The notes below the pieces were generated by a model. That model made no database searches and was not told the DNA's origin. It was given only the letters and a program-made list of their open reading frames with translations. Below are positions 244-46,576 of a stretch of DNA of 64,000 bases, piece after piece. The stretch comes from Cordilura impudica (Eukaryota; Arthropoda; Insecta; Diptera; Scathophagidae), in NCBI GenBank assembly GCA_963682025.1, contig OY821519.1:97677585-97741584 (forward strand), in the 5' to 3' direction. The translations under genes and the position numbers were made by a program. How positions within the stretch are numbered: position 1 is the stretch's first letter; every line of letters begins with the position of its first letter.

Positions 244-610
244 CTAGCAGATTCCAGCACTCGAAATTCGACTGCAATTTCTAGGCAGATTTATTTTGCA
301 ACTTAGCCAATTCACAAACCAACACTTTTATGGTTTATTATTATTGTGAATGAAGATAACAAACTCATTAACAAACACATTAACAAATTTAATAAAACAC
401 ACATAGCATATTTATAATTTTATGTATGTGTTAGTAAGAACTTTAAATGCAATTTACTCAAAATAAAGGAAAAAATTTTAAAATCTGTATATCTACAAAA
501 CGGCTAAAAAGAAATACCTTTCAAATAATATACGTTTGATCAAAATCAGGATTAAACGGTAGAACAAAACATCGGTCACAAGAAATCGCCTAGCCTGTTA
601 ATATTATAGA
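244..610 (-). mobile_element. non-autonomous Helitron, family HINE, copy 1
   Basis: Read on the minus strand the 367-bp element begins TCTATAATATT and ends CTGCTAG. A palindromic hairpin core close to CTCGAAATTCGAG lies about a dozen bases before the CTAG end. It sits between an A and a T (A at 243 and T at 611 on the plus strand), the classic Helitron insertion preference. Three further copies with the same ends lie at 40656, 48624 and 54073. It contains no gene. It appears inserted into the 3' end of the RAG1-like pseudogene that begins immediately beyond 610, which now ends in Helitron-derived codons. Confidence 0.8.
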
Positions 611-1862
611 TTATTTATTAGATTCAAATATTGATTGCAAATATTCCATATTTTGTTCTGTGTTATTTCTGTTCTTAGTAGTTTTTTGACTTCCTCATCT
701 AAATCCCGATGTTGCACTTTCCATTGATTTCGAATACTGGAGATGAACAGATCTGACGTTGCCAATAATATATTAAATAGATCTTCATTTGTGGAATTTC
801 GTGAAATTTTTCTAGTATTGTGCTCTCTATGAAATCTGTAATCCTTATTCCTTTTTTCCTGAGCCTCCTCAGATAGATCTCTAAGTAGCACCAAATGATA
901 TTTAATGACATCTTCTACATGATAAACGATTTTGTGAACTGTTGCATGTTGCAGACATATTTCTGCATGGGTACTTGGTTGTATATATTTTTGCAGTTTC
1001 CCTATAATCTCCAAATTTTCTAGAGTCAATTTCTTCATTACACGCAAGTACTTCTAGGATTATTTTAAATCTGGAAATAAGGTTTAAATTCACTCCTATT
1101 ATTTCAGATGCTATTCCTGGATTTGAAAATAATCCTCTTGCTGTATTGCCATCATTTGTATTATCTGACCCTTATTTTGGCTGATCTATAATCAATCCAA
1201 ATTTGCGATATTCATCTTAAACATGTTCCTTTTTTGAACTTCTTAACTCTTTGTTGGTTTCGCTGTCTCTTATTGATCCTGAAGACCCGAAATCCAAGTC
1301 ATATTTGATTTTTAGTATGTGTTCCATAAGTCGTATTCTTGCATGTAGTGGTGATAATCCGAATTCATATGCATCAGTGCTATTTAGTGATTTTTCGGGA
1401 CTTGATTGCTTGATGTTGCTTGTCATATAATGCAGCTGGATTCAGCCTTCGTGTTAATCAAAGCCTGGCCTACTTTTTCATCTATCATTGTCAGCATTAA
1501 TTGGTAGCTTACTGAAATTTGCTGCCTATCACACTGTAATTTTAATGGCTGTAGTGTTGAAATTTGGTCCTTGATATCAGTAACTTATTTGTTAATGACA
1601 TCATGAGTTTCTTTTTTTAATTCAAATTTGATTGGCCTGCAGTATTTCGTAGAAGATGGTGTCTCTTTTTTCCAAATATCCATTGTTTGCGTTGTACTAG
1701 TCGAAGGCTCTGAATATTCCAAAATCTTTTTCAATCGCAATGGTACAAATGATACCATGAACATATCTGAGTCCGAAATATTTTCACATACTACTTGTTT
1801 GTATTATTTTTTCGCGAAGAACCATCACATCCCCATTTACAAAAAAGAATTTACTTTGTGCT
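611..1862 (-). pseudogene. RAG1/Transib-like transposase remnant, copy 1
   Basis: Minus-strand translation in several broken frames resembles the better-preserved relative at 22288-24316. In order from the amino end: a KWGCDGSS block near 1830 (site of the first catalytic Asp in RAG1-family transposases), a DIKDQIST...LQPLKLQ block near 1550, YEFGLSPLHARIR at about 1370, RFKIILEVLACNEEID near 1050, and HKIVYHVEDVIKYH...SEEAQEKRNKDYR at about 850-950. The last block contains the Glu that aligns with the third catalytic acid of RAG1. The N-terminal third is missing, cut off where the tandem array begins near 1890. The C-terminus is cut by the Helitron at 610. Frameshifts and stops separate the blocks. 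RAG1/Transib membership is inferred from motif order; no terminal repeats of this copy are visible. Confidence 0.65.
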
Positions 1863-1914: not shown

Positions 1915-2775
1915 CTCTGTCTGTCTGTCTGCCTGTCTGTCTGCCATAGGTAGACCCCATACCCCCTCATCCAATTGATTTGAAACTTGGCCCATAGGCT
2001 TGTCGTGACTACAGATTAATTTTGGGATAGTCACGCACAGTCACGCGTGGTCACGCACATTCACGGAGTCATTTCCCCTCATCCGATCGATCTCAAGCTT
2101 GGTCCATACACTTGCTGTGAAAAAAGATTAACTTTGACTTAGTCACGCACAGTCACGCGTGGTCACGCACAGTAACGGAGTGATCTAAATGTCATTTTCC
2201 CTCATCCGATCGATCTCAAACTTGGTCTACACACTTGCTGTGAAAAAAAGATTAACTTTGACTTAGTCACGCACAGTCACGCATTGTCACGCACAGTCAC
2301 GGAGTGATCTAAATGTCATTTTCCTCATCCGATCGATCTCAAACTTGGTCTACACACTTGCTGTGGAAAAAAGATTAACTTTGACTTAGTCACGCGCAGT
2401 CACGCATTGTCACGCACAGTCACGGAGTGATCTAAATGTCATTTCCCCTCATCCGATCGATCTGAAACTTGGTCGATATACTTGCTGTAAAGAAAGATCA
2501 ACTTCGACATAGTCACGCGCAGTCAATCATAGTCACGCACAGTCACGGAGTGATTTAAAACCCATTTTTCCTTATCCGATCGATCTAAAACTTGGTCGAT
2601 AGACTTGCTTTGAAAAAAGATTAAATTTGACATAGTCACGCACAGTCACGGAGAGACTAAAACCCCACTTCCCCTCATCCGATGGATCTGAAACTTTGTA
2701 CATAGACTTGTTTTAGCCAAAGATTAATTTTAAGATAATGACACTCAGTCACGGAATATTCAAAACTCATATGCA
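1915..2775. repeat. tandem array of ~120-bp units rich in TCACGC motifs
   Basis: About seven units start near 1964, 2086, 2200, 2325, 2447, 2571 and 2675 (spacing roughly 106-124 bp). Each has a CCCCTCATCCGATCGATCT block, an AACTTGG(T/C)C block and a GATTAA(C/T)TTT block. The units then run into short internal repeats of AGTCACGCAC and GGTCACGCAC. The left edge is a CTGT/CTGC run (1915-1945). The same unit recurs as about four copies at 33405-33870, so this is a dispersed satellite-like family. No coding function is apparent. Confidence 0.85.
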
Positions 2776-3441
2776 TAAGGAAAGAAAGAGTTTTAATAAA
2801 AACTTTGTATTTATGGCTTAGATTATTATTGATTATAGCAAGCGTTCGGCTATGTGATCAAGTAGAGATTGTAGTTGTACCTCTGCCGAAATTGGTGTGA
2901 TTAGTTATGATAGTATCCTTTGATGGCAAACAGTCCATTTTTGCAAATATATGAAAAGGGTGATGTATTTTGTAAGCAGATTTCATTACTGGTAATAGAA
3001 CAAATAATTTAACACACCATTGTATACTTATAGGGCTGTTTAAATTACCGTAATTTGAAAGAGTAATTTCATTAAAAATTAAAAAAGTGTTCTACTCGCG
3101 GATCGTCACGCGTGCAAAAGTAAAGGGTTAAAGAAGATACTTTCACCTTTCTCTGGGTGGTATACGTTTCTTGTTCCCTTTTGTTTCCTAGAAGTTCTAT
3201 TCTACTAAAGTTGAACTTTGACACAAATATAGTAGTTTAGTAAATACTTCAGAACACCCCTAATATTAAACGGTAGAGTTGTGACCACCTATTCGGTTAC
3301 CCGATGGCGTTAGTAGAATTAAATCCATATCATTTTTAAGTATTACCTTCAAAAGATACGTGTATAAATTTGACAGCTGTGTGATTATTTGTTTGTGAGA
3401 TATAGCATTTTGAGAGAAGCAACTTTAGTGCTTGTAAAAAA
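2776..3441. other. unassigned, partly mariner 5' flank
   Basis: No gene is seen. The bases just before 3442 are probably the 5' untranslated part of the mariner. An exact terminal inverted repeat could not be matched by eye with the 3' side near 4550-4640; only a TCTACTCGC-like match is hinted on both sides. Confidence 0.4.
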
Positions 3442-4490
3442 ATGGAAAAAGAAGAATTTCGTGCGTTGATAAAACATTATTTTTTGATCGGAAAAAATGC
3501 TTCTGAAGCCAAAAAATCGCTTGATAAGCATCATCCAACATCTGCTCCCGATTATTCAGTCGTAAGATATTGGTTTGCGAAATTTAAAACCGGCCATATG
3601 GGCACCAAAGACGATGAACGCAGTGGACGTCCGAAAGAGGTTGTTACCGCAGAAAACATCAAAAAAATCCACAAAATAATTTTGAATGACCGTAAAGTGA
3701 AGTTGTTCGAGATAGCTGAGACTCTGAAGATTTCGAAAGAGCGTGTTGGACATATCGTGCATGAATATTTGGGCATGCGAAAGCTCTGTGCAAAGTGGGT
3801 GCCGCGCGAGCTCACAATTGACCAAAAACAACAACGTGTTGATGATTCTGAGCAGTGTTTGGAGATGATTAAGCGTAATAAAGCCGAATTTCTGCGTCGA
3901 TATGTGACAATGGATGAAACATGGCTCCATCATTACACTCCAGAGTCCAATCGGCAGTCAGCGGAGTGGAGAGCGAGCGACGAACCGAATTTAATGCATG
4001 GAAAGACGCAACAGTCGGCTGGCAAGGTTATGGCGTCCGTATTTTGGGATGCACATGGTATATTTTTCATCGACTATCTTGGGAAAGGAATAACAATCAA
4101 CAGCGATTATTACATAGCATTGTTGGTGCATTTGAAAGACGAAATCGCGAATAAACGGCCCCATATGAAGAAGAAAAAAGTGTTGTTTCACCAAGACAAT
4201 GCACCGTGTCACAAATCATTGAAAACAATGACAAAAATGCATGAATTGGGCTTCAATTGCTTCCGCACCCACCGTATTCTCCAGATCTGGCCCCCAGTGA
4301 CTATTTCCTGCTCTCAGACCTGAAGAGGATGCTCGCTGGGATGAAATTTAAGATCGATGAAGAAGTAATCGCCGAAACAGAGGCCTATTTTGAGGCTAAA
4401 GACAAATCGTACTACAGAAATGGTATCGAAAAGTTGGAAGATCGTTATAATCGCTGTATCGCCCTCGAAGGCAACTATGTTGAAAAATAA
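3442..4490 (+). pseudogene. mariner (DD34D) transposase, one frameshift
   Basis: A cut-and-paste transposase of the Tc1/mariner superfamily. Translation starts MEKEEFRALIKHYF and continues for 293 codons in one frame. The N-terminal half has the paired-type helix-turn-helix region, ending in VGHIVHEYLGMRKLCAKWVPREL. The catalytic domain shows the first Asp in VTMDETWLHHY and the second in LFHQDNAPCHK. Near 4250 one base appears to be missing. After the break, the frame resuming at about 4257 encodes HPPYSPDLAPSDYFL, with the third catalytic Asp, and runs to GNYVEK and a TAA. Combined length (about 345-350 codons) is normal for mariner. A single frameshift means the copy is inactive as read but decayed little; a sequencing error is the alternative. 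Neighbouring DNA is unrelated repeat. Confidence 0.9.
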
Positions 4491-12930: not shown

Positions 12931-15900
12931 TTAAACATTTTGTAGCAATTTGTCGGATTCGTCGTTGGCCACGAATGGCTTTAGTTCGCTAATGTGTGCC
13001 GTTCGTATGTCGTTCTTTTCTTGGCCCATCAGTTTAACTATAACTGAGGATGGCAGGGCGGTAATGGTATAGGGTCCAACAAACTTTGGCGCTAACTTCG
13101 CCGCGAAGTTTTCAGACGCCTTCGACAGTTGATGTTGTTTGACCAAGACTCGCTGTCCAATCGTGGGTTTCCATGGTCTCCGCCGCAGATTATAGTACCG
13201 TCTCTGATCTTGAGCCGCACGGACCAGGTTGTTTCGTACAATCTTAAAGACGTCACGTAATTGCAGACTCTTTTCGGTGGGGTTCCACTTGGTGGATCCG
13301 GTCCCCACGGTGACTTCGTCATATAGTGCACGTGGCAGCCTGGGTTCGCGACCTTGGGTAAGGAAAGCGGGTGAATAACCAGTAGATTCGGATGCGGCGG
13401 TGTTGATGGCCAACGAAATTTCGGGTAGCAGGTCATCCCACGTGACGTGTTTATTCTTGGTGAACTGAGATATCATCGTTTTGATGACGCGGTTTGTCCT
13501 TTCCGTCGGATTTTCTTGGGGGGTGTATGGTGCTGTAAGCTGGTGTTCGACCCCAAGATCTTTTAGGAAACTTTTGAAGATTTTACTGGTGAACTGGGAT
13601 CCGTTGTCGGTTATTGCCATCTTTGGTACACCGAACCGTGCCAGAATTCGTTCCCGGAACGCCTTTATTAATCCCTCGGAGGTGGCTTTACGTTGTGGTA
13701 TCAGCTCCGTCCATTTAGAAAAGCGGTCGACGATAACCAATAACATTGTGTTGCCGTGTTTCGATCGGGGTAGTGGCCCCACGAAATCTAGGCAAATGGT
13801 GGTCCATGGCTCCTCAGGTACCCTGGTAAGCATTTCACCGGCTGGCTTCTGTTGACAGACTTTGTATTGTTGGCAGGATTGGCAGCTTCGTACATAGCGG
13901 CTGACATCTCGGAAGAGTCCCGGCCAGTAATACCGATTACAGATCCGATTTATGGTTTTTCGGATGCCGAGATGCCCTGCGGTGGGGTCATCGTGATTTT
14001 CCCTCAACACGCGTTCTCGTTGTGGGGTTCCTACACAAAGTTTCCACGGTTGGCAGTCTTCGTCGTTGTGGTTCCTGGGGAAATGTCTGTAAAGCTGATT
14101 GTTAATTAACGAAAAGTCTGAATATTTTTGAGGGTTATTTTTAACCGCATTTATTTGTTTTTCCAACCATACACAATTCGATGGGTTGTTACCTGTAACC
14201 AGTCGCTGGAATGTTTCTAGGGGTTGCCGCGATAATGCATCGGCCACGGTGTTTTGTGCGCCTTTCCGGTATTGAACGTGGAAGGTATATTGCTGGAGCT
14301 CTAAGGCCCATCGAGCCAACCGGCCTGTTGGTGTCTCTATTGAATTGAGCCATTTGAGGGATAGGTGATCGGTGATGACGGTGAATGTATACCCCTCTAG
14401 GTACATCCTCATTTTCCTTATGCCCCACACTATGGCCAAGCACTCCTTTTCGGTCGTGGTATAATTTTTTTCAGCTTGGTTCAGGTGGCGGCTCGCGTAC
14501 GCTATGACTCGTTCTGCTCCGTTCAGCTGTTGGGTGAGGACAGCACCAAGGCCAAAATCGCTAGCGTCGGTTTGTAGGGTGAACGGCTGGGAGAAGTCGG
14601 GGCAGGCCAATACCGGGGCTTCTGTCAATTTTGCTTTCAATGTTTCGAACGCTTTCTGTTGATCGTCTGCCCACTTAAAATGTTTCCCCTTCTTCAGTAA
14701 GGAGGTTAGTGGCTGAGATATTTTGGCAAATTCAGGTACGAATCGTCGGTACCAGGAGGCGATGCCTAAAAATCGTCGAACGTCGCGGACATTCTTTGGT
14801 GGGGCCATCTTGGTGACTGCGGAAACTTTGTCGGGGTCGGTTCGGATTCCATCTCCACATACAACATGACCCAGGTATTTAATTTCCCGTTTGAAGAACT
14901 CACACTTTTCGGGGTTTATTTTTAAATTCGCCTTTCTTAGACGCTGGAACACCTCCTTCAGGTGCTTGATATGTGCCTCCAACGTTTGGCTGGTAATGAT
15001 GATGTCATCAAGATACGCAAACGCGTGGGGTTCCATATCCGGGCCGATAACGTGGTCGAGAGCACGTTGGAATGTTGCCGGGGCCGAGTGGAGTCCGAAT
15101 GGCATAACCTTCCACTGATAAAGGCCACGTCCCGGAACGGTGAAAGCGGTGAAGGGTCTGCTCTCTTTAGCCATGGGAATCTGCCAGTACCCATTTTCTA
15201 AATCGAGGCAGCTGATATAACGCGCTTCTTTAAGACGGTCGAGTATGTGGTTGATACGTGGTAGTGGGTATGCGTCGGGGATGGAGCGTGCATTTAGTTG
15301 GCGAAAGTCCATGCACAGTCTCCAGGAGCCGTTCTTTTTCTTGGCTAGCGTGATGGGGAAACTGTACGGACTATTTGAAGGTTCGATACATCCCTTGGCC
15401 AGCAGATTATTTATTTCGGCGTCAATTACGGCTTGCATTGCCGGATTCCGGTTGGCGTACCGAATTTTTATCGGTCGGTTGTCTTTCATATGAATCTGAT
15501 GTTCGGTGAGCCTAGTCGGACCCTTCACCATTTTGAACGCCTGTAGTTCCTTTTCTAAAAAAGCATCAATTTGAAGTTGCTCTTCCGAGCCGGAATGAGT
15601 AGGTGGGTAAATACAAGAATTGACATTGGATACACTTACCCGGTCCGAAACGGTCGTGGTTGGGCCTTGGGCATTGTCCCGGCTGGTTGCCATACAGGGA
15701 TGGTCCACATGGATATGGTCGTCTTCCAGGCAGAGTGATAAATGTCCAAATGAGACGGTGGTTTTAAAACGCTTCAGCAAATCCAACCCTATGATCATTT
15801 CTTCGAGGGCTGCTGGCATGATTAAGAAAACAACTCGTTGGATGGCCTGATCGACCATCACTTGGCACTCGATGGCATACCGGATTTGATTCGTTGATCC

Positions 15901-16983
15901 ATCGGCGAGTACGACTTCCAGCTCTCTAGGTGACCGTGGGTGGTTGGCAAAGGTGGTGTCAGCCAGGTCTTTGCTGATGTAGTTACTGGTTGCTCCCGTA
16001 TCGATCGTGGCTATTATGGCAATGTTCCCAAATTGTACATCGGCACTGAGCCGATTATCTTCACACCGTAGGCCGATTACTTTTATATGTGGGTGGCTTT
16101 GCTGTTTAGAGACACGACTCACCATCATTCTGTGTTGTTCATTTCGTCCGCCGCGTGAGTTGTTATCGTTGGGGATGCTTTCGAGATCGTCGGCCAATGC
16201 TAATAGTTCTGCGAGGTCAGAGAAATCCCTTCGGCGAATGTACCATAAATAATTTGGATGCGAATTTCTGAAAATCCGCTCAAGCTGTTGGGCTTCGGTC
16301 ATCTCCGTATGGCGCATCAGGTTTTGGAGCGCTAGGACGTAATCTTTGAAAGGCTCTCGTGGCCGTTGGCATCTTCGTCGGATATCATCTTCTAATTTCT
16401 CAAAGAACCGAGCTGGAAGGAAAAATTTTAAAAAGTCTGCTTTAAACGCTCCCCAGGAGCCCCAATGCCTGTTGTTGCTACGGAACCATATTAATGCTCG
16501 TTCTTTAAAAAACTCTGGCATGGTTCCCGGTAACAACGATTTATTAACGCCATACATCACGGCCATCTCTTCAACTCTTTCAATGAAAATTAAGGGGTCC
16601 TTGCCACCATCATACCTGACTCCCCACTTGCGTACACAATCGATTATGCTCACCATCTGTAGGTTATCCCGTTCAGCTGAGCGAGCTTCCGGTGTGGCAA
16701 TGTCTGCTTCGGATTTAGCCTGACTGTGTGCGGACTTGGCTGGACTGTTGTCTCCGGAAATGGTGATCTTGGGAATTTTAGCCGCTGGTTGGTTGCTGGC
16801 GGTGTATTTCTCCTGTAATTCAAGGAGTCGTTTCATCCGGTCGGATGAATGTTCGCCACCTACAAATTGCGCCAGTTGTTTTCGCATCTCCTCTACCCCA
16901 CTTGCCGGTTGAATGTCGAATTCGTGCAGGCAGGTCAATAGATCATCCTTCCGCAGCGAGTAAGCCCACGAGATCCGTGACAT
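12931..16983 (-). CDS. Gypsy gag-pol polyprotein, intact
   Basis: 1350 codons, no stop, starting MSRISWAYSLRKDDLL. Residues about 8-42 look like a SAP-type helix-turn-helix. Residues about 110-270 are a retrotransposon Gag capsid region (LIFIERVEEM...FKERALIWF). A protease with DTGAT is at 328-332. Reverse transcriptase spans about 500-700, with LDLENGYW at 593-600 and a YLDD box at 657-660. RNase H is at about 800-915 with TDASDFG. The integrase has an H2C2 zinc-binding site (H997, H1004, C1034, C1037) and catalytic D1066, D1126 and E1161. No CCHC zinc knuckle is visible between capsid and protease, which is unusual for a nucleic-acid-binding Gag. Gag and Pol share one frame without a frameshift, so Gag:Pol ratio must be set by another route. 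The open frame and matched LTRs suggest a potentially active copy. Confidence 0.95.
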   Translation of the reverse strand: MSRISWAYSLRKDDLLTCLHEFDIQPASGVEEMRKQLAQFVGGEHSSDRMKRLLELQEKYTASNQPAAKIPKITISGDNSPAKSAHSQAKSEADIATPEARSAERDNLQMVSIIDCVRKWGVRYDGGKDPLIFIERVEEMAVMYGVNKSLLPGTMPEFFKERALIWFRSNNRHWGSWGAFKADFLKFFLPARFFEKLEDDIRRRCQRPREPFKDYVLALQNLMRHTEMTEAQQLERIFRNSHPNYLWYIRRRDFSDLAELLALADDLESIPNDNNSRGGRNEQHRMMVSRVSKQQSHPHIKVIGLRCEDNRLSADVQFGNIAIIATIDTGATSNYISKDLADTTFANHPRSPRELEVVLADGSTNQIRYAIECQVMVDQAIQRVVFLIMPAALEEMIIGLDLLKRFKTTVSFGHLSLCLEDDHIHVDHPCMATSRDNAQGPTTTVSDRVSVSNVNSCIYPPTHSGSEEQLQIDAFLEKELQAFKMVKGPTRLTEHQIHMKDNRPIKIRYANRNPAMQAVIDAEINNLLAKGCIEPSNSPYSFPITLAKKKNGSWRLCMDFRQLNARSIPDAYPLPRINHILDRLKEARYISCLDLENGYWQIPMAKESRPFTAFTVPGRGLYQWKVMPFGLHSAPATFQRALDHVIGPDMEPHAFAYLDDIIITSQTLEAHIKHLKEVFQRLRKANLKINPEKCEFFKREIKYLGHVVCGDGIRTDPDKVSAVTKMAPPKNVRDVRRFLGIASWYRRFVPEFAKISQPLTSLLKKGKHFKWADDQQKAFETLKAKLTEAPVLACPDFSQPFTLQTDASDFGLGAVLTQQLNGAERVIAYASRHLNQAEKNYTTTEKECLAIVWGIRKMRMYLEGYTFTVITDHLSLKWLNSIETPTGRLARWALELQQYTFHVQYRKGAQNTVADALSRQPLETFQRLVTGNNPSNCVWLEKQINAVKNNPQKYSDFSLINNQLYRHFPRNHNDEDCQPWKLCVGTPQRERVLRENHDDPTAGHLGIRKTINRICNRYYWPGLFRDVSRYVRSCQSCQQYKVCQQKPAGEMLTRVPEEPWTTICLDFVGPLPRSKHGNTMLLVIVDRFSKWTELIPQRKATSEGLIKAFRERILARFGVPKMAITDNGSQFTSKIFKSFLKDLGVEHQLTAPYTPQENPTERTNRVIKTMISQFTKNKHVTWDDLLPEISLAINTAASESTGYSPAFLTQGREPRLPRALYDEVTVGTGSTKWNPTEKSLQLRDVFKIVRNNLVRAAQDQRRYYNLRRRPWKPTIGQRVLVKQHQLSKASENFAAKLAPKFVGPYTITALPSSVIVKLMGQEKNDIRTAHISELKPFVANDESDKLLQNV

Positions 16984-17734
16984 GGTGATTAATTTGGACG
17001 GGAAGGAAATTCGAAAGCTTTGAAAAGATTGATTAGTATTAAAAATTTATTATTATAATTTTTTTCAAAATAAGCAGGGTGAAATTTAATCCTCCACAGT
17101 GATGGTAGTTCCTTTCCACGGTCGCTGATTAATTTTTCTTCCCGGCCACTTAATTCACGGAATAATAAAAAAAAATTTTAAAGTTTTTAAATTGTCCTCG
17201 ACCTCCAAATTCACGATATTGGTTTTTTTTAATAAAAGAAAACAGTTTTTTTTTTTTTTTTTTTGTAAGTGTTCTAATTTACCGCGGTCACTAAATCCAC
17301 AAGGTGAGATATTTTTCCCGGTTTATTACACGCCGACACGTCACAACCTTCACGGGCAGGTTCTTTTATTTCCGTCGGTAAATTCACTTTATGATTTCCG
17401 TTGACACTTTGGAAACTTAATATTGTCCCACACTCTCACGAGGCCGTATTGTACTGTTCAGGTTTATTATTTTATTTCCGTAATTGTCTACCGACGGCAC
17501 CTCACTGTTTTTTTTCACGGGTCACTTTGTGGCTCTATTGCTTATTATTTATTTTGTATTTTTAGACTTTAGTATTCCGGTTAAACTGCCATTTACAATT
17601 TCACGTTACACACATTTACGTTAACAATTAAAATTTTTTTACTTCAACAGTTTGTTTTGTTTCACGACACAACTTAGGTTGTTTGGACTCGATTACCCAA
17701 AGTTTTGTTTCTTTTATTCCGAAATTTTTAGAGA

Positions 17735-17752
17735 GTCCCTGCTCAGGCGCCA
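17735..17752 (-). promoter_or_regulatory. primer binding site, tRNA-Lys-like
   Basis: On the minus strand, one base after the 5' LTR, the sequence reads TGGCGCCTGAGCAGGGAC. This is complementary to a tRNA 3' end ...CAGGCGCCA. It differs at two positions from the familiar Lys-type primer site TGGCGCCCGAACAGGGAC. Confidence 0.8.
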
Positions 17753-17753
17753 C

Positions 17754-18808
17754 TGTAACGACGCAAAATCTGCTCTTGCCAGGGTGAGCTCAGTCGCGTC
17801 CAGGGTCGTTACAGAAAAGAAATTTCGAAGTTATTTGCAGGGGGAAAAAAATAGGCGTCAACTTCAACGTTATAAAACTTAATACTTTATTATGTAGACA
17901 AACTCGTTATAATCGTATGGTATAGCAACGTGTTGCACCCGGAATAGAAACGAACAAAAAAAAACTTTAAGGCACCAATTTTAAATTGAACATGGGAACA
18001 CAGACAAGCGACTTCAGCATCTATTCTTGCTGCTTAGATATGTTAGACCAGTGTACATGTATGACTTCAGCATCTATACATGTAACCAACTCTAACATAA
18101 ATATTCCCTATGTATCAGTTTAATGGTAAGTTGCCAGCCAGCTAACTTACCTTGGTGTCTATCACACGACTGATCATTTTCTGTTTGCTGTTTGGCTTTT
18201 TATAGTCACAGCATGGTGTGATAAACATACGCGAATGTATAAGTACATACAACGAACCCTACCGACCAATCAGAACGAAGCTGACGTGTCATAGTTAGCG
18301 TCACTTAGTTGTTAATTTATGTATGCAACCAACTGGGTTTACACAAGACGTACAACTCTTGGTTGAAATCTTTACTGTCACTGGTGGTGTTAGAGGTCGT
18401 TGTATGTAACTATTAAAATCATACCGTAAGTACCGGGTGCAATTATAAACAATGATAAACATAAATGTAGGTGAACTAAATATACATATAAGGGAAAAAT
18501 AATATAAATATATAATATATGAACGTAATATTAATATAAATATAATAATATAAATATAAATAGAATACAAGACTATAAATGTTCATTTATAATATGCTGT
18601 AGGTATATAGTTTAAATATACGAGGGTATATTATAAATGAATTGGATACATGAATTTTATATGAATGTATAAATGAAGACAAAATATAAATATACAGCAA
18701 ATATAAATATACAGATGATATGACGTATTTTGAATATACATATGCCGGTCGGGATCGGTTGAGAGATAAATGTGGGGACCAAAACGAGTGTCGACTTTGG
18801 TCCTTACA
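17754..18808 (-). repeat. 5' LTR of the Gypsy element
   Basis: Equal in length to 11241-12295 and apparently identical to it. It holds the promoter and RNA start for the minus-strand transcript. About 770 bp of untranslated leader separate it from the gag start at 16983. Confidence 0.95.
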
Positions 18809-21856: not shown

Positions 21857-21968
21857 ATCTGTAGTTTTCTGGAATAACCGCGTATTAATGTTGACCATTT
21901 CTGAGTTTTTTCTTTAAATAACGACGTAACTTAAATGTTTATTAAATTATTTTGCAGCACTAACGATG

Positions 21969-22006
21969 CACAGTGGCGCCATTTTAGTTTTTTCGTTGCA
22001 AAAATC
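21969..22006 (+). repeat. left terminal inverted repeat, RSS-like (heptamer-22-nonamer)
   Basis: Heptamer CACAGTG at 21969-21975, spacer 21976-21997 (22 bases, beginning GCGCC), nonamer-like GCAAAAATC at 21998-22006. Confidence 0.85.
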
Positions 22007-22287
22007 ATATCTTTTGAACCGAATAACATAATTGAACAGTTTAACATGCATATGATAGATAACTGTTCAGCCTATGAAATGAGCGTTTGGAAAGGGTGCT
22101 ACGCTTTGTAGGGGCCTACTTATGGGTTATCAAAGTTAAAATTTGTAGAAAAATCAATTTTATGGTAACTAAAAAAAATTATTTTTACATTTTTAGATTA
22201 TTTTTATTTTTTTTCTTTAGGGTTTTATGTTTTAAATTATTACCCAACAAATTAAAAAAAAATTACTTCTTTTTTAAATTTAATTTT

Positions 22288-24316
22288 TCAATTTTCTGTA
22301 AAATATTCATCACAATTCGTAAGAGAAGGTATATCTAAAAGACTAATCATTTCTAAACTATAATTATTTTCTAACTCTATTCGTGACTTCACATGCCGCA
22401 GGGAAGAAATAAGTGGATCGGAAGATGCTGCCAACATGTTGAAGAGGTCCTCATTTTGCCTTACCCTTGATGCTTTGAATGTGTTCTGCAATCTATATTT
22501 TTTTATAAAATTTGTTAAGAGACTCCTGTGCTTCTTCAGAAAACTCTCCAATTGGCAAAGACTGGTACTCAATTATATCTTTGCCATGCGCCAATATTTT
22601 ATGGATGGTCGGGGTCAACTTCTTCTGTGGATACATTTCTGCTAAAAGAGATGCAGTTTTCGATGCATATTCTCCGTATTTTGTAGAATTGGCATTTTCT
22701 TTGCAGTTTAAAACATTCAAGATCGTTCCCAATCTTTTCACGATTTGATTGTCAATTCCAGTGATTCTAGTTACTGCCTCATCATTTTCAAAAAATCTCC
22801 TAGAAGTGTTTCCATCGTTTGAGTTACCGTATCCGTGCTTGGGACAGTCTACTTTTAGTCCAACTTGTTTAAAAAAAGCATCCTGTATTTGCTTCTTTCT
22901 GATCTTTTCCTTTTCTTTTATTGATGTATTTTCATCGAAGTTTTCCTCCTCTTGTGGTAGGGTATACGCCAGTTTTAGCAAGGACTCCATACACCTTATC
23001 CTTGCGTGCAATGGTGACATTCCATATTCGTAATTCTCCTCGTTTGTAGAATCGTTTAAATTACCAAAGTTCTTCTGACTCTTTTTGCAAATCGGGCATG
23101 ACAATGTTGAGGTTGTTCCTGTCAGTTCGTTTACGACTTTTCCGTCAACAATGATCAGGTGGAACTCGTAATTGCATTCAATATATTTTCCTTCTCCAAA
23201 TTGCAGCTTTGTAGGCTTAATCTTGCTTATTTGTTCTTCAATGTCCTTCACCGTGGTCCTTATGAGTTCTGCCGATTCCCTTGCAAACTGAAACATTATT
23301 GGTCGGCAATAATGCACTGATGACGGACGTGGATTTTTCTAGTGTAGGGAAACATCAGATTTTAGCCGCAAAGGAACAACAGATGCCATAAACATATTTC
23401 CGTCCGATATTGTAGCGTCATCGGAAGATATCCTTTGCTTATAAACGCTTTGTCCGGATGATCCATCGCAGACCCATTTGCTGATCAATGTCAGTTTCTA
23501 AGGAAGAATTTTCACCTCATTTTCAGGAAGACTTTCCAACAACCGTTTTGCTGTATAGCCCATGAGATCCTGCAGATTGGCTTTCACAGAGACTTCCGTA
23601 AACTCCGTATGCAGTGGTCGTGAATTTATTTTGGCTTGCGTAATATGCTTGTATCCTGGTAAAGCGTCAGCCCCGTGTCGCATCAAGGATGCCCGTAGTA
23701 TCTCATATTTTTCTTTGGAAAGTTGTAAGTCCATAAACAAGGCCAAGGCTTCTTCGGAACCATACTTTTTAATGTGTGCATTTGTGGGCGTGGGAATGTT
23801 TTCCTTAATCCTTTTTAGTCGCAGTGGGCTTGCATCAGCAACAGATTTTGTAATCTGCGACCTAACTCTTTCACTATCCTTTGTATATTTAATAGACAGC
23901 GCGTCCGATAAATGCTTCCTCTTTCTTGTGAAAATTGAACACTCCTCAATACTTTTTTTTGGCCTTCCTTTTGCTCCTCTGGTTGATGTGGTGGGTTTAT
24001 CTACTGCCAATATATCGAGGATGGTGTCTTCATTAAGCCAGTCCTCGTATTTGGAGTTGAAGTTCTGAAAGATTTCACCCATTTTGCCTTAATATTTGCA
24101 TATATCAGATAAATATTATTTTTTATAATTTCGCTTCTCTCAATATTTCCGTATAAGCTATCAAGTTCTTCTAAAGCAGCTTCCGTGAAAAACTTTGGTG
24201 CGGTTGACCTTCTAAACAGTTCAAATAATTTTAAATTGTTTAACGCCATGGTTTCAGTACTTGTTGCCCCAACTTTCAGTCGTAGACTAATCCAGGCGTT
24301 ATGCTTATTTTGCAAT
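22288..24316 (-). pseudogene. RAG1-like (Transib) transposase, about 670 codons, broken
   Basis: Minus-strand order: start region MQNKHNAWISLRLKVGATS (24315), frameshift near 24078, then MGEIFQNFNSKYEDWL, a basic GRPKKSIEE stretch, EALALFMDLQLSKEKYE and VKANLQDLMGYTAKRLL. An amber stop at 23498-23500 follows. Next is SKWVCDGSSGQSVYKQR (Asp codon 23465-23467, the likely first catalytic acid), then a second amber at 23339-23341 just before KNPRPSS. After it come HYCRPIMFQFARESAELI, ELTGTTSTLSCPICKKSQ (Cys pair), YGMSPLHARIRCMESLL, VDCPKHGYGNSNDGNTSRRF and HKILAHGKDIIEY...SEEAQESLNKF. The Glu at 22523-22525 aligns with RAG1 E962. A frameshift near 22500 leads to RQNEDLFNMLAASSDPLISS. The expected middle Asp is not evident by eye: Ser precedes PLHARIR in both copies of the window. 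Length and motif order fit the RAG1/Transib family. Inactive as read. Confidence 0.8.
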
Positions 24317-25183
24317 ATATAGGCTTATGCCACCATGCCTAAAAATTTAGCTGTTCCATGCATACATATGGATTTAGGCTGAATTATGCAATTTTGATAT
24401 TATGCTCGTATCTAAATAAGATTTGTGCCTACCTGGAGGGACCATAAGTCAATATTGTTCTTGACCATTTGTACTCGAAATAATTTTTAAGTGAGGTGCG
24501 TATCTACGAATTTCAATGAGTAGTTTTTTGTGCATCCTGTGTCTGTAACAGAATATTGGGAGTAGACTTTGGCAGAGGCTCACAGGTAGACAACCGACTT
24601 AAAATGCAATTTTCATACTATTAGATCAAACTACTGTCAGTCAAAACATGTAAGGGATGCAAGCCATACAATTTCTGCAACCATGTCTTTTTAACCTTTT
24701 TTACCTCTAGAAGCCAAACGGGCTCGTACGGGCAGATAAAACCTTTTGAATTATGTAAAGAAATGATCAAGGAACATGTTTTGCAAATATGGCAAATATA
24801 GAAAAATATGGATTTTTTTTATTTTCCGTCAAAGTTGAAAAATAGTGGAAAACGGATAGTTTTTAAATAGTGATTTACCAGGAGAAACACAAAGCAAACA
24901 GTTAATTTCTTTTTTATCATTATACATTTAATAAATACAACAATCAATACAAACAAAAAATAAGGCGATTCGTTACCTATTTTTCGTGATATTACACCTG
25001 AAATCGCAACAAATTGAATAAAAATTGTGTGTTTTTTTGAAAACCGAAAGTCGGTCAACTTTGAACGGTTATATCTTCTAAACTAAAAATGTGATATTAT
25101 TAAGAGTAGCATATTTGAAATCGTTGAAAAGTTTCATATAACATGGGTTTATTCAAAACTTCATCGGCGCACATGAAAATTTT

Positions 25184-25222
25184 GATTTTTGCAACCTCGT
25201 TTGCTCTACGGGCGCCACTGTG
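25184..25222 (-). repeat. right terminal inverted repeat, RSS-like (heptamer-23-nonamer)
   Basis: Read on the minus strand: CACAGTG at 25222-25216, spacer of 23 bases (25215-25193, beginning GCGCC), GCAAAAATC at 25192-25184. Confidence 0.85.
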
Positions 25223-25744
25223 CGACGTATGTCAACCTACATTTGATCGCTGACAAATTATTTTATCAGAAAACAACACATAGCGACATACGTTGTTATT
25301 AATGAAAAAAAATTCAAAATAATTTTGGATTAGTTTTCAGTTTATAACCACTTATAAAAACTTGTGTGTCCCGTTAACTTTTTGTTGAGGAACAAAAAAA
25401 TCCATTTTTCAAGCAACAACAACTTATGTCTACATGGGTGATTGCATTGGTAGTTTTCTTTTTCAAAGAAAACGACGTTTGTCGACATAAGTTGTTTTAT
25501 CTGCACACACTTTAAGTGTTATTTACATATTGTTTTTTCGTCCTTCTCTAGGATCTATTCCTCTGAAGATTTTTGACTCAAAATTTTATATAAAGTATTT
25601 ATTGCCCATATCTGCAGGACTGTTATATAAAAAGTTCTAAAAACTTTATATCGAGCCCATAATTTCAAATGTAACGTTTTTTGGCTCCCCTGAACATTTT
25701 GATTTTATGACATACGCGGTTATTCTAGAAAACTACAGATATAT

Positions 25745-44196: not shown

Positions 44197-46576
44197 CATT
44201 GGTTCCACCTTTTGTGGTAATCGTAGCCTTCGGTAACAATTTGGAATCTTACGTACCCCTAACTTTTATAGATATTTATAAACAGAAAGAAAAAAAACAA
44301 TATTATATATAAAAAAAAAATTATTCACCTTATATTTAAAAGTAATTAATTAAAAATGACAAAAAAAATTAAATTTATTGTTCTATTCGTGGTACGGTGT
44401 TTGAAAGAGCCAACCGCATGTTGGCCTTTAGTTTGTTCCTTAATTTTGTTTTTATGAACACAAGCACTGAAAATCCAAATTCGCAAAGGTAAGTAGTGAC
44501 AAACGGTATAAGAGCTTTCAACGCCCCTTTGACCAAAACAGGATATGCCTCACTTTGTTTACACCAGAATACATCCAACGCCATTGTTTCAAAGTCACTG
44601 CTTATTTTTTTGTTATTCTGCAATTCAATGAGCTCATCTTTTGCGTCATCAGCATCACTAATTTGATCCAATGAAATGGTGAAAGGGTTTCTTATCCATA
44701 TATCAACTACAAATGTGCAAGGAATAATTCCATCGAAAGTTATTTGAAAATTTTCCAGATGCATTTTAATACAGTCCAGAACCTTGATATCAATTTCACG
44801 TTTAACTTGCAAGGAAACTATTTCATCAAAAAGCTAAAAATTGGCGTAATTTTCACTTTTAACTCTTCTGCCATAGAGAGCCAACTTTTCTTGAAATGAT
44901 GTACTTTTCTCATCGGCATCTAATATATTCATACCTCTACCTTGGAGTGATATATTTAAGGAGTTTCGATGGCTAAATATATCTGCAAGGTAAGCTAAAG
45001 AGAGCAAAAAGCTGGGATCCATGAAGTGAAGCGAAAGAGTTGATTCTTTGTCACGTAGAAATGTCTCAAAATGCAAAAGAAGTACGGTATGTACGCACCC
45101 AACTTCTTCGCACAACACTTTAAATAGGCGGTGATTCAATGCCCTTGATTTGATAAAGTTTACGGTTTTCACTACAATATCCAATACCTCTTTGAAATAA
45201 GAAGGAACAGTCTTTGATGCCAAAGCATGACGATGAAGAACGCAATGACTAGAAAAAACATTATGGTTTATCTGTTTCATAAGAGCAATAAATCCAGAAT
45301 TTTTGTCGAGCATAGCTAGAGCACCATCAGTACAAATAGCTCCCACATTATTCCAAGAAAGCCCATTGGCAACAACACAATTATTCATAATTGACATAAT
45401 ATCCACAGCCTTTGTAGTTTCTGTCAGAGGTTCACAAAAAAGAAAATCTTTGATTTCGTTTCTATACACAATTTAACAAAAACGATAAGTTGAGCACGGT
45501 TAGTAACATCAGTGGATTCATCCAATTGCAACCCAATTTTTGTTGAACTTTCTTGTATTTGCTCCAAAATCTGCTTTAAGACATCTTCTGACATATCTTT
45601 AATTCGGTCGTGAATAGTATTGTTGGATAGTGGGATTTGTCATTTGTCCGCCATTTCTATCGCACATGTCTAATCAAAGTTTCTGTGATTGTATGAGGTT
45701 TTTTATCTTTCGCAATCCTCAATGCCACACGATAACTTGCTTCTAAAGCTGCTTTTTTATCGGGAACAAATCCGTGATTGGTGAGCTTTTCGCTTGTTTC
45801 AAATCGGGCTCTCTTAATTTTGAATAGAGCTTCTGTGTCATTAACGTTGTTTGGATGGACTACTTGCAGATGTTCCTTAAGTTTGGATGGTTTCATATAA
45901 ACATTACTAAGTACTTTCGAGCAAAGTATACATTGTGGCCTTTGCAATCCATCTTTGTCAACTAAGAAAGTGAAGCCGAATTGAATATAAGAGTCCTGAT
46001 AACAACGCTTCTTTGACATTGTGATAGTATGGGTTACCTGTCGATAAGAAAAAAATAATTATTTCTGGAACCTAAAACATAAAATTATGCACTGGTTTAT
46101 TTATTGTACTTACCAAAATAAATCGAAAACCGTTATATATATTTATTTTTTGTACACGTTTTCGTAGTAAAAACAATAACAATTTGATAATTAAATTACA
46201 TCAATAGTGCACAGAGAACCGAAAAATATTAAAAACTCAGAATTTTAATAATGAATCTTCTTACTATTTTGCTACTATATTGCTATATGTCGCTTTTCTA
46301 TGAAAACCAAAATTTCAAAGCCTACAAGTGCTTTTTCATGCAACGGCTTATTTCAAAAATAAGAAATACTCGTATTTAGTTTTAGGAAATTTACTTTAAG
46401 AAAACCAAACTGTGTTCAAAAAAATTTAGATTTTTGTTTGTTACAAAATTTTAAAACAATGAGATATTATCAATAATTGGAAAAAAAAATTTTCTTACCG
46501 GCCGCGCTTCCCGTACCCCCGAGAAGTGCTCCACGTACCCCTATGGGGTCCATAGATCACCGGTTGGGAACCCGTG
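44197..46576 (-). mobile_element. hAT transposon inserted in INE-1-like repeat
   Basis: Exact 8-bp duplication CCCTATAC at 44189-44196 and 46577-46584. Inward ends CATTGGTTCCACC and CACGGGTTCCCAACC are short imperfect inverted repeats typical of the hAT group. The duplicated bases belong to the ACCCTATACCACTAT start of an INE-1-like family 1 copy that continues at 46577. Confidence 0.85.
44375..46019 (-). pseudogene. hAT transposase, ZBED5/FAM200-like, decayed
   Basis: Starts MSKKRCYQDSYIQFGFTF (46019). A BED-type zinc finger follows: CILC then HLQVVH with spacing H-x4-H. Next is KLTNHGFVPDKKAALEASYR. After a frame break, LQLDESTD (acidic site near 45540) and a further shift lead to CTDGALAML. 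The conserved stretch ending SSHCVLHRHALASKTVP follows, then KSRALNHRLFKVLCEEVG. A segment with the usual RWLS motif is deleted between LLLHFET and FLRDKES. The last part ends in the dimerisation region KALIPFVTTYLCEFGFSVLV. At least three frame breaks plus the deletion make it inactive. It resembles the hAT lineage that gave rise to vertebrate ZBED5. Confidence 0.82.

Follow-up and report, generated by a model that had tools for sequence, protein, structure and literature searches.

The described systems closest to the element reported here are the Transib transposons, the ProtoRAG/RAGL transposons, and vertebrate RAG1 with its recombination signal sequences (RSSs). Most Transib ends, including those of HzTransib from Helicoverpa zea (PDB 6pqn and relatives), are described in PMC8289069 as symmetric, with a clear heptamer and little or no nonamer similarity. 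Transib ends with heptamers and nonamers identical to those of RSSs are nevertheless already known, stated for some asymmetric Transibs in PMC8355894 and for Transibs generally in PMC6941560. For ProtoRAG/RAGL, a heptamer starting with CAC and 5-bp target duplications are reported (PMC8289069, PMC7204232), the ProtoRAG heptamer being given as CACTATG with spacers of 27 and 31 bases (PMC8289069); a 5-bp duplication, GCTCG, is also given for HzTransib (PMC1852546). A 2015 source puts autonomous Transibs at typically one or at most a few copies (PMC4411706), and Transib1 is reported to have spread in Drosophila melanogaster in 2013-2016, Transibs thus being still mobile in flies (PMC12230796). 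The derivation of V(D)J recombination signals from the ends of transposons is a matter of debate, one reason being that HzTransib, the Transib whose structures have been solved, reportedly has no nonamer (PMC8289069). Here we describe an element of 3254 bases at positions 21969 to 25222 of a 64,000-base stretch of the genome of the fly Cordilura impudica (contig OY821519.1; the whole stretch is referred to below as the window). It is a degraded, inactive copy of a Transib transposon and belongs to a high-copy family with RSS-like ends.

Both ends of the element start with the same 12 bases, CACAGTGGCGCC, which have no other exact match in the window. As proposed in the original prediction, which was made from the sequence alone, the two ends are alike, with the exact RSS heptamer, CACAGTG, and a nonamer-like block, GCAAAAATC, after 22 and 23 further bases; all this can be read directly in the window. 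The description of that block as near-consensus was fair wording, as 7 of its 9 positions are those of the RSS nonamer, ACAAAAACC, but the agreement is not exact. The same prediction gave CACWATG as the usual Transib heptamer. The heptamer occurs 8 times on the two strands of the window, and only the two element ends have a 9-mer with at least 7/9 matches to ACAAAAACC at a spacer of 11-13 or 22-24 bases, a cut-off reached by 0.40% of the 9-mers in the window. In the genome (1,486,481,460 bases searched, with the reversed pattern as a control), CACAGTGGCGCC has 6,097 matches (3056 + 3041), compared to 3 (1 + 2) for the control. The pairing of heptamer and nonamer at these ends is therefore not a matter of chance, given the two qualifying heptamers out of 8, the low background, and the excess of the 12-mer over its control. 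In 4758 cases genome-wide, CACAGTGGCGCC is followed by an exact GCAAAAATC after 5 to 30 further bases (control, 0), and the spacer in 100 listed matches of this kind is 22 bases in 55 and 23 bases in 45, with no other length. The ends are thus shared by many other copies.

The left core sequence taken without its heptamer has 2042 matches in the genome, and 1763 with CACAGTG; the respective numbers for the right core are 1759 and 1560. A sample independent of the heptamer was obtained by picking copies by their transposase (33,402 first-look candidates in the protein search, 138 scored and matched) and inspecting the expected ends around the 20 best protein matches other than the window. These ends were counted by eye from a listing, and those shifted by one to three bases were taken as present. 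Eighteen of the 20 copies yielded a left end, which had an exact CACAGTG in 16 and an exact GCAAAAATC in 15. The right end lay within the fetched stretch in 12 of the 20 (exact CACAGTG in 11, exact GCAAAAATC in 9); two more ran beyond that stretch and six were not found. CACAGTG, frequent even in copies that were not picked by it, is therefore the consensus at both ends.

Copy number was estimated from 100 listed CACAGTGGCGCC places in the first 26.4 Mb of contig C1. Among them are 28 pairs of facing plus- and minus-strand 12-mers no more than 6.3 kb apart; another 44 are single ends. All 28 pairs and 32 of the 44 singles were fetched. At 28 pairs per 100 ends, the whole genome would hold some 1,700 paired copies; the estimate is rough, resting on one stretch of one contig, and includes all subfamilies with CACAGTGGCGCC. 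By the longest matching block (at least 89% identical), 24 of the 28 pairs belong to the same family as the window element, the diverged ones being L009, L018, L034, and L036. Target duplications of 5 bp are perfect in 21 of the 28 pairs and have one mismatch in 6, whereas L020 shows four mismatches in register owing to a one-base shift. The perfect duplications are CGTCG (7 cases), CAACG (4), CGACG and CGTTG (3 each), and four other sequences found once each; by position, they have C1 in 20, G/A2 in 21, A/T3 in 20, C/T4 in 21, and G5 in 19 of the 21, which is the GC-rich 5-bp type found with Transibs. Divergence among 18 copies (the window element plus 17 selected by length from the 24 of its family) averages 3.0% with a range of 2.1 to 4.3% (153 pairs), as would be expected of a fairly young family that went through a fairly recent burst.

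The inner block is retained in most of these copies. Of the 28 left ends of pairs, 23 have it in exact form after a 22-base spacer; of the 28 right ends, 22 have it in exact form after 23 bases and one more after 22. Among the single-12-mer loci, 29 of 32 carry a block at spacer 22 or 23 that equals GCAAAAATC in at least 7/9 positions. Six of these 29 (L054, L056, L059, L063, L064, and L067) have a very different, TTTCCCCAAATAGCGTG-like spacer and keep both blocks. Since the blocks persist where the spacer does not, these ends suggest that it is the heptamer and the inner block, not the spacer, that are under constraint, although descent alone could be part of the explanation. In the same six loci, CACAGTGGCGCC is followed at spacer 22 by a GCAAAAAT-type block, and their ends look like those of a distinct Transib subfamily.

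The original prediction also placed a broken transposase of the RAG1/Transib family between the ends, and such a gene is present there on the minus strand. The HzTransib chain 6pqn_A is matched at 1.6e-48 in a single-sequence search and at 2.4e-174 by profile, which puts the protein inside that family. RAG1 is distant, its best chain reaching 0.0018 and 4.6e-12 in the respective searches, and the Pfam RAG1 match is barely over the cut-off (25.7 versus 25 bits). The best matches with an organism name come from the fly Eurosta solidaginis (59-60%). The coding sequence is split over three frames and interrupted by in-frame TAG codons, so the window copy makes no full protein. Five fetched copies with long open frames (L109 to L113) were checked for integrity: the 667-residue Met-to-stop frame of L110 contains the GRP, KWxCDG, CRPI, VDGKV, and SEEAQE motifs, that of L111, with 698 residues, has the same motif set, and L109, L112, and L113 are also open, each with at least one motif absent or changed. 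In a structure comparison, the model of P0003 shares 36% identity with 6pqx_A over 467 aligned residues and has the core fold in common with RAG1. The GRP motif is present in 97 of the 121 transposase proteins examined (120 listed of 223 matches, plus P0001). A CTT1-type motif, Cx2Cx3GHx4C, was found in 0 of these 121, and inspection of the C-terminal parts in five other copies showed none. Nine open reading frames (ORFs) from the element region, out of 23 of at least 50 amino acids listed around it, were scanned with Pfam; the sole match above the cut-off was the RAG1 match of the transposase itself, and the nine revealed neither RAG2L nor any other second gene, which leaves one recognizable gene in the 3254 bases.

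We consider it very probable that the window element is a defunct member of a high-copy family of cut-and-paste Transib DNA transposons with bipartite ends. Each end consists of a terminal CACAGTG-GCGCC block and a GCAAAAATC block that follows the heptamer after 22 or 23 bases. By analogy with HzTransib and RAG, transposase made by intact copies, some of which may be active today, would pair two ends, nick 5' of the heptamer, and turn the flanks into hairpins. The excised element would then be inserted through a 5-bp staggered cut at sites resembling C-G/A-W-C-G, as the observed duplications indicate. For the inner block, the most likely reader is the GRP-bearing N-terminal region of the transposase, which would bind it as the nonamer-binding domain (NBD) of RAG1 binds the RSS nonamer. 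The window copy itself can no longer provide its own transposase. Several observations weigh against parts of this picture. Not every core comes with an exact CACAGTG (about 14% lack it on the left and 11% on the right), 1,339 of the 6,097 12-mers have no exact inner block, and three of the 32 single-12-mer loci (L052, L055, and L061) fall below 7/9. The GRP motif is missing in 24 of the 121 proteins, some of them short but others not (e.g., P0050, with 702 residues). The model part before residue 169 is covered by few rows of the structure comparison, and the sole RAG1 row to extend well into the N-terminal region is that of 6cil_A (from residue 122; two others start at 164), so that a shared NBD fold is unsupported there. 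Finally, the solved HzTransib chain has no counterpart of the N-terminal GRP region, beginning at profile position 172; the region may therefore be dispensable in some Transibs.

A weightier alternative, to which we give a substantial chance that nonetheless falls short of even, concerns the RSS likeness itself, which could be coincidental beyond the CAC of the superfamily: one family would have happened on CACAGTG, and the A-rich inner block would be a Transib-specific site unrelated to the nonamer. Its premise is variation among Transib ends in the later positions of the heptamer, and it fits a nonamer match of only 7/9, two spacers of the 23 type, an A+T-rich window, and the little or no nonamer similarity described for HzTransib (PMC8289069). 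It accounts less well for an inner block that stands at spacer 22 or 23 in all 100 listed matches and is kept at 7/9 or better in 29 of 32 single loci, six of them with a different spacer sequence; besides, PMC9435367 reports an equivalent of the RAG1 NBD, with GRP, in both Transib subgroups. At the other extreme, the ends may work as true equivalents of the 23-RSS, with the GRP region reading GCAAAAATC as a nonamer and vertebrate RAG accepting such an end as partner of a 12-RSS, which we regard as possible but unlikely.

As for the placement of the family, an RAGL/ProtoRAG transposon that lost RAG2L and is nearer to RAG1 than ordinary Transibs are could also present an exact RSS heptamer, a nonamer-like block, and a Pfam RAG1 match. 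This is highly improbable, as HzTransib is matched far better than RAG1 or amphioxus RAG1L and neither the CTT1-type motif nor a second gene turned up among the proteins and ORFs inspected. On the available sequence comparisons, the element is an ordinary Transib, not nearer to RAG1. Its presentation as a notable member of the RAG1 lineage accordingly holds with respect to family and heptamer but has to be tempered, since it is of the ordinary kind and RSS-identical ends are already in print (PMC8355894, PMC6941560). An accidental arrangement, in which the ends are those of another element or have come together by chance around an unrelated transposase fragment, could draw on a third look-alike of the 12-mer in the window, apparently a gypsy long terminal repeat (LTR) end. 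The chance of this is practically nil, and the idea is refuted by the alignment of the whole 3254-base stretch, both ends included, as a single unit to other copies (e.g., L010, L012, and L022, at 93-96%), with duplications.

TABLE 1 Features of the element and of other parts of the window
Feature	Positions	Strand	Remarks
Left target-site duplication, CGATG	21964-21968	+	4/5 bases same as right flank, one mismatch
Right target-site duplication, CGACG	25223-25227	+	Pairs with left flank
Left end, CACAGTG + GCGCC	21969-21980	+	Heptamer 21969-21975
Left nonamer-like block, GCAAAAATC	21998-22006	+	22-base spacer after heptamer
Right end, CACAGTG + GCGCC	25211-25222	-	Heptamer 25222-25216
Right nonamer-like block, GCAAAAATC	25184-25192	-	23-base spacer after heptamer
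Degraded Transib transposase gene	22288-24249	-	Three frames: start, main, and end parts
ORF in the frame of the first part	24324-24001	-	
Main-part frame	24088-22493	-	Two in-frame TAG ahead of terminal TAG
281-residue open stretch	22493-23338	-	Large part of catalytic domain; HzTransib 1.6e-48; Pfam RAG1 3.9e-06
ORF in the frame of the last part	22572-22288	-	
Second, older, broken Transib relative	604-1053	-	Perhaps to about 1830; 53% identity over 73 residues to P0013; no Pfam match
Tandem array	2068-2650		123-base unit, 4.7 copies, 90% matches
Mariner-type transposase	3406-4323	+	Mos1-type helix-turn-helix; 305-residue open frame; Pfam Transposase_1 3.2e-19
Gypsy-type LTR polyprotein	12931-17046	-	Single 1371-residue frame
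Look-alike of the 12-mer, TACAGTGGCGCC	17746-17757		Beside gypsy polyprotein
hAT-like transposase remnants	44375-46058	-	hAT dimerization region 2.4e-4 and zinc finger 1.3e-4, both just under Pfam cut-offs

The window also contains a second Transib relative, a tandem array, and mariner-, gypsy-, and hAT-type sequences (Table 1). The TACAGTGGCGCC site next to the gypsy polyprotein looks like an LTR end that mimics a Transib end by chance; part of it we take to be a primer site.

What is new here is the family, its copy number, and the retention of the inner block in ends with different spacers. The exact heptamer, the conservation of the inner block at spacer 22/23, the extrapolated number of about 1,700 paired copies, and the open frames of some of them make it direct test material for the question of whether an RAG2-free transposase uses a heptamer-spacer-nonamer signal. 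Should its ends be equivalent to 23-RSSs, this abundant family would serve as a living model, free of RAG2, of how things stood before the 12/23 rule.

Compared with the described systems, the family shows what is found in Transibs: a homologous transposase, inverted ends with a CAC heptamer, and only one transposase gene among the nine ORFs scanned. HzTransib shares with it the homologous transposase and the 5-bp duplications. The copy number of the family described here is far above the one given in PMC4411706, most of the copies read not being shown to be autonomous. The CAC-starting heptamer and 5-bp duplications are common to ProtoRAG/RAGL, which, in contrast to this family as judged from the nine ORFs and 121 proteins, carry RAG2L and CTT1. 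Because these two were not found and the 12/23 asymmetry is absent, both spacers being of the 23 type (22 left, 23 right), we class the element neither as an RAGL transposon nor as an RSS pair. From vertebrate RSSs and RAG1 it further differs in having transposon ends rather than gene-segment signals, no 12-spacer partner, no RAG2 among the nine ORFs scanned, and remote sequence similarity to RAG1, whereas the core fold of RAG1 is shared by the transposase model. The asymmetric Transibs (Transib5 of Drosophila melanogaster and Transib2, N1, N2, and N3 of Anopheles gambiae) have an RSS-like heptamer and nonamer, as seen here, and are set apart, going by their descriptions, by 12/23 spacers. In the signal itself, there is likeness to the vertebrate 23-RSS, with an identical CACAGTG, a nonamer-like block matching in 7 of 9 positions, and a comparable spacer of 22 or 23 bases.
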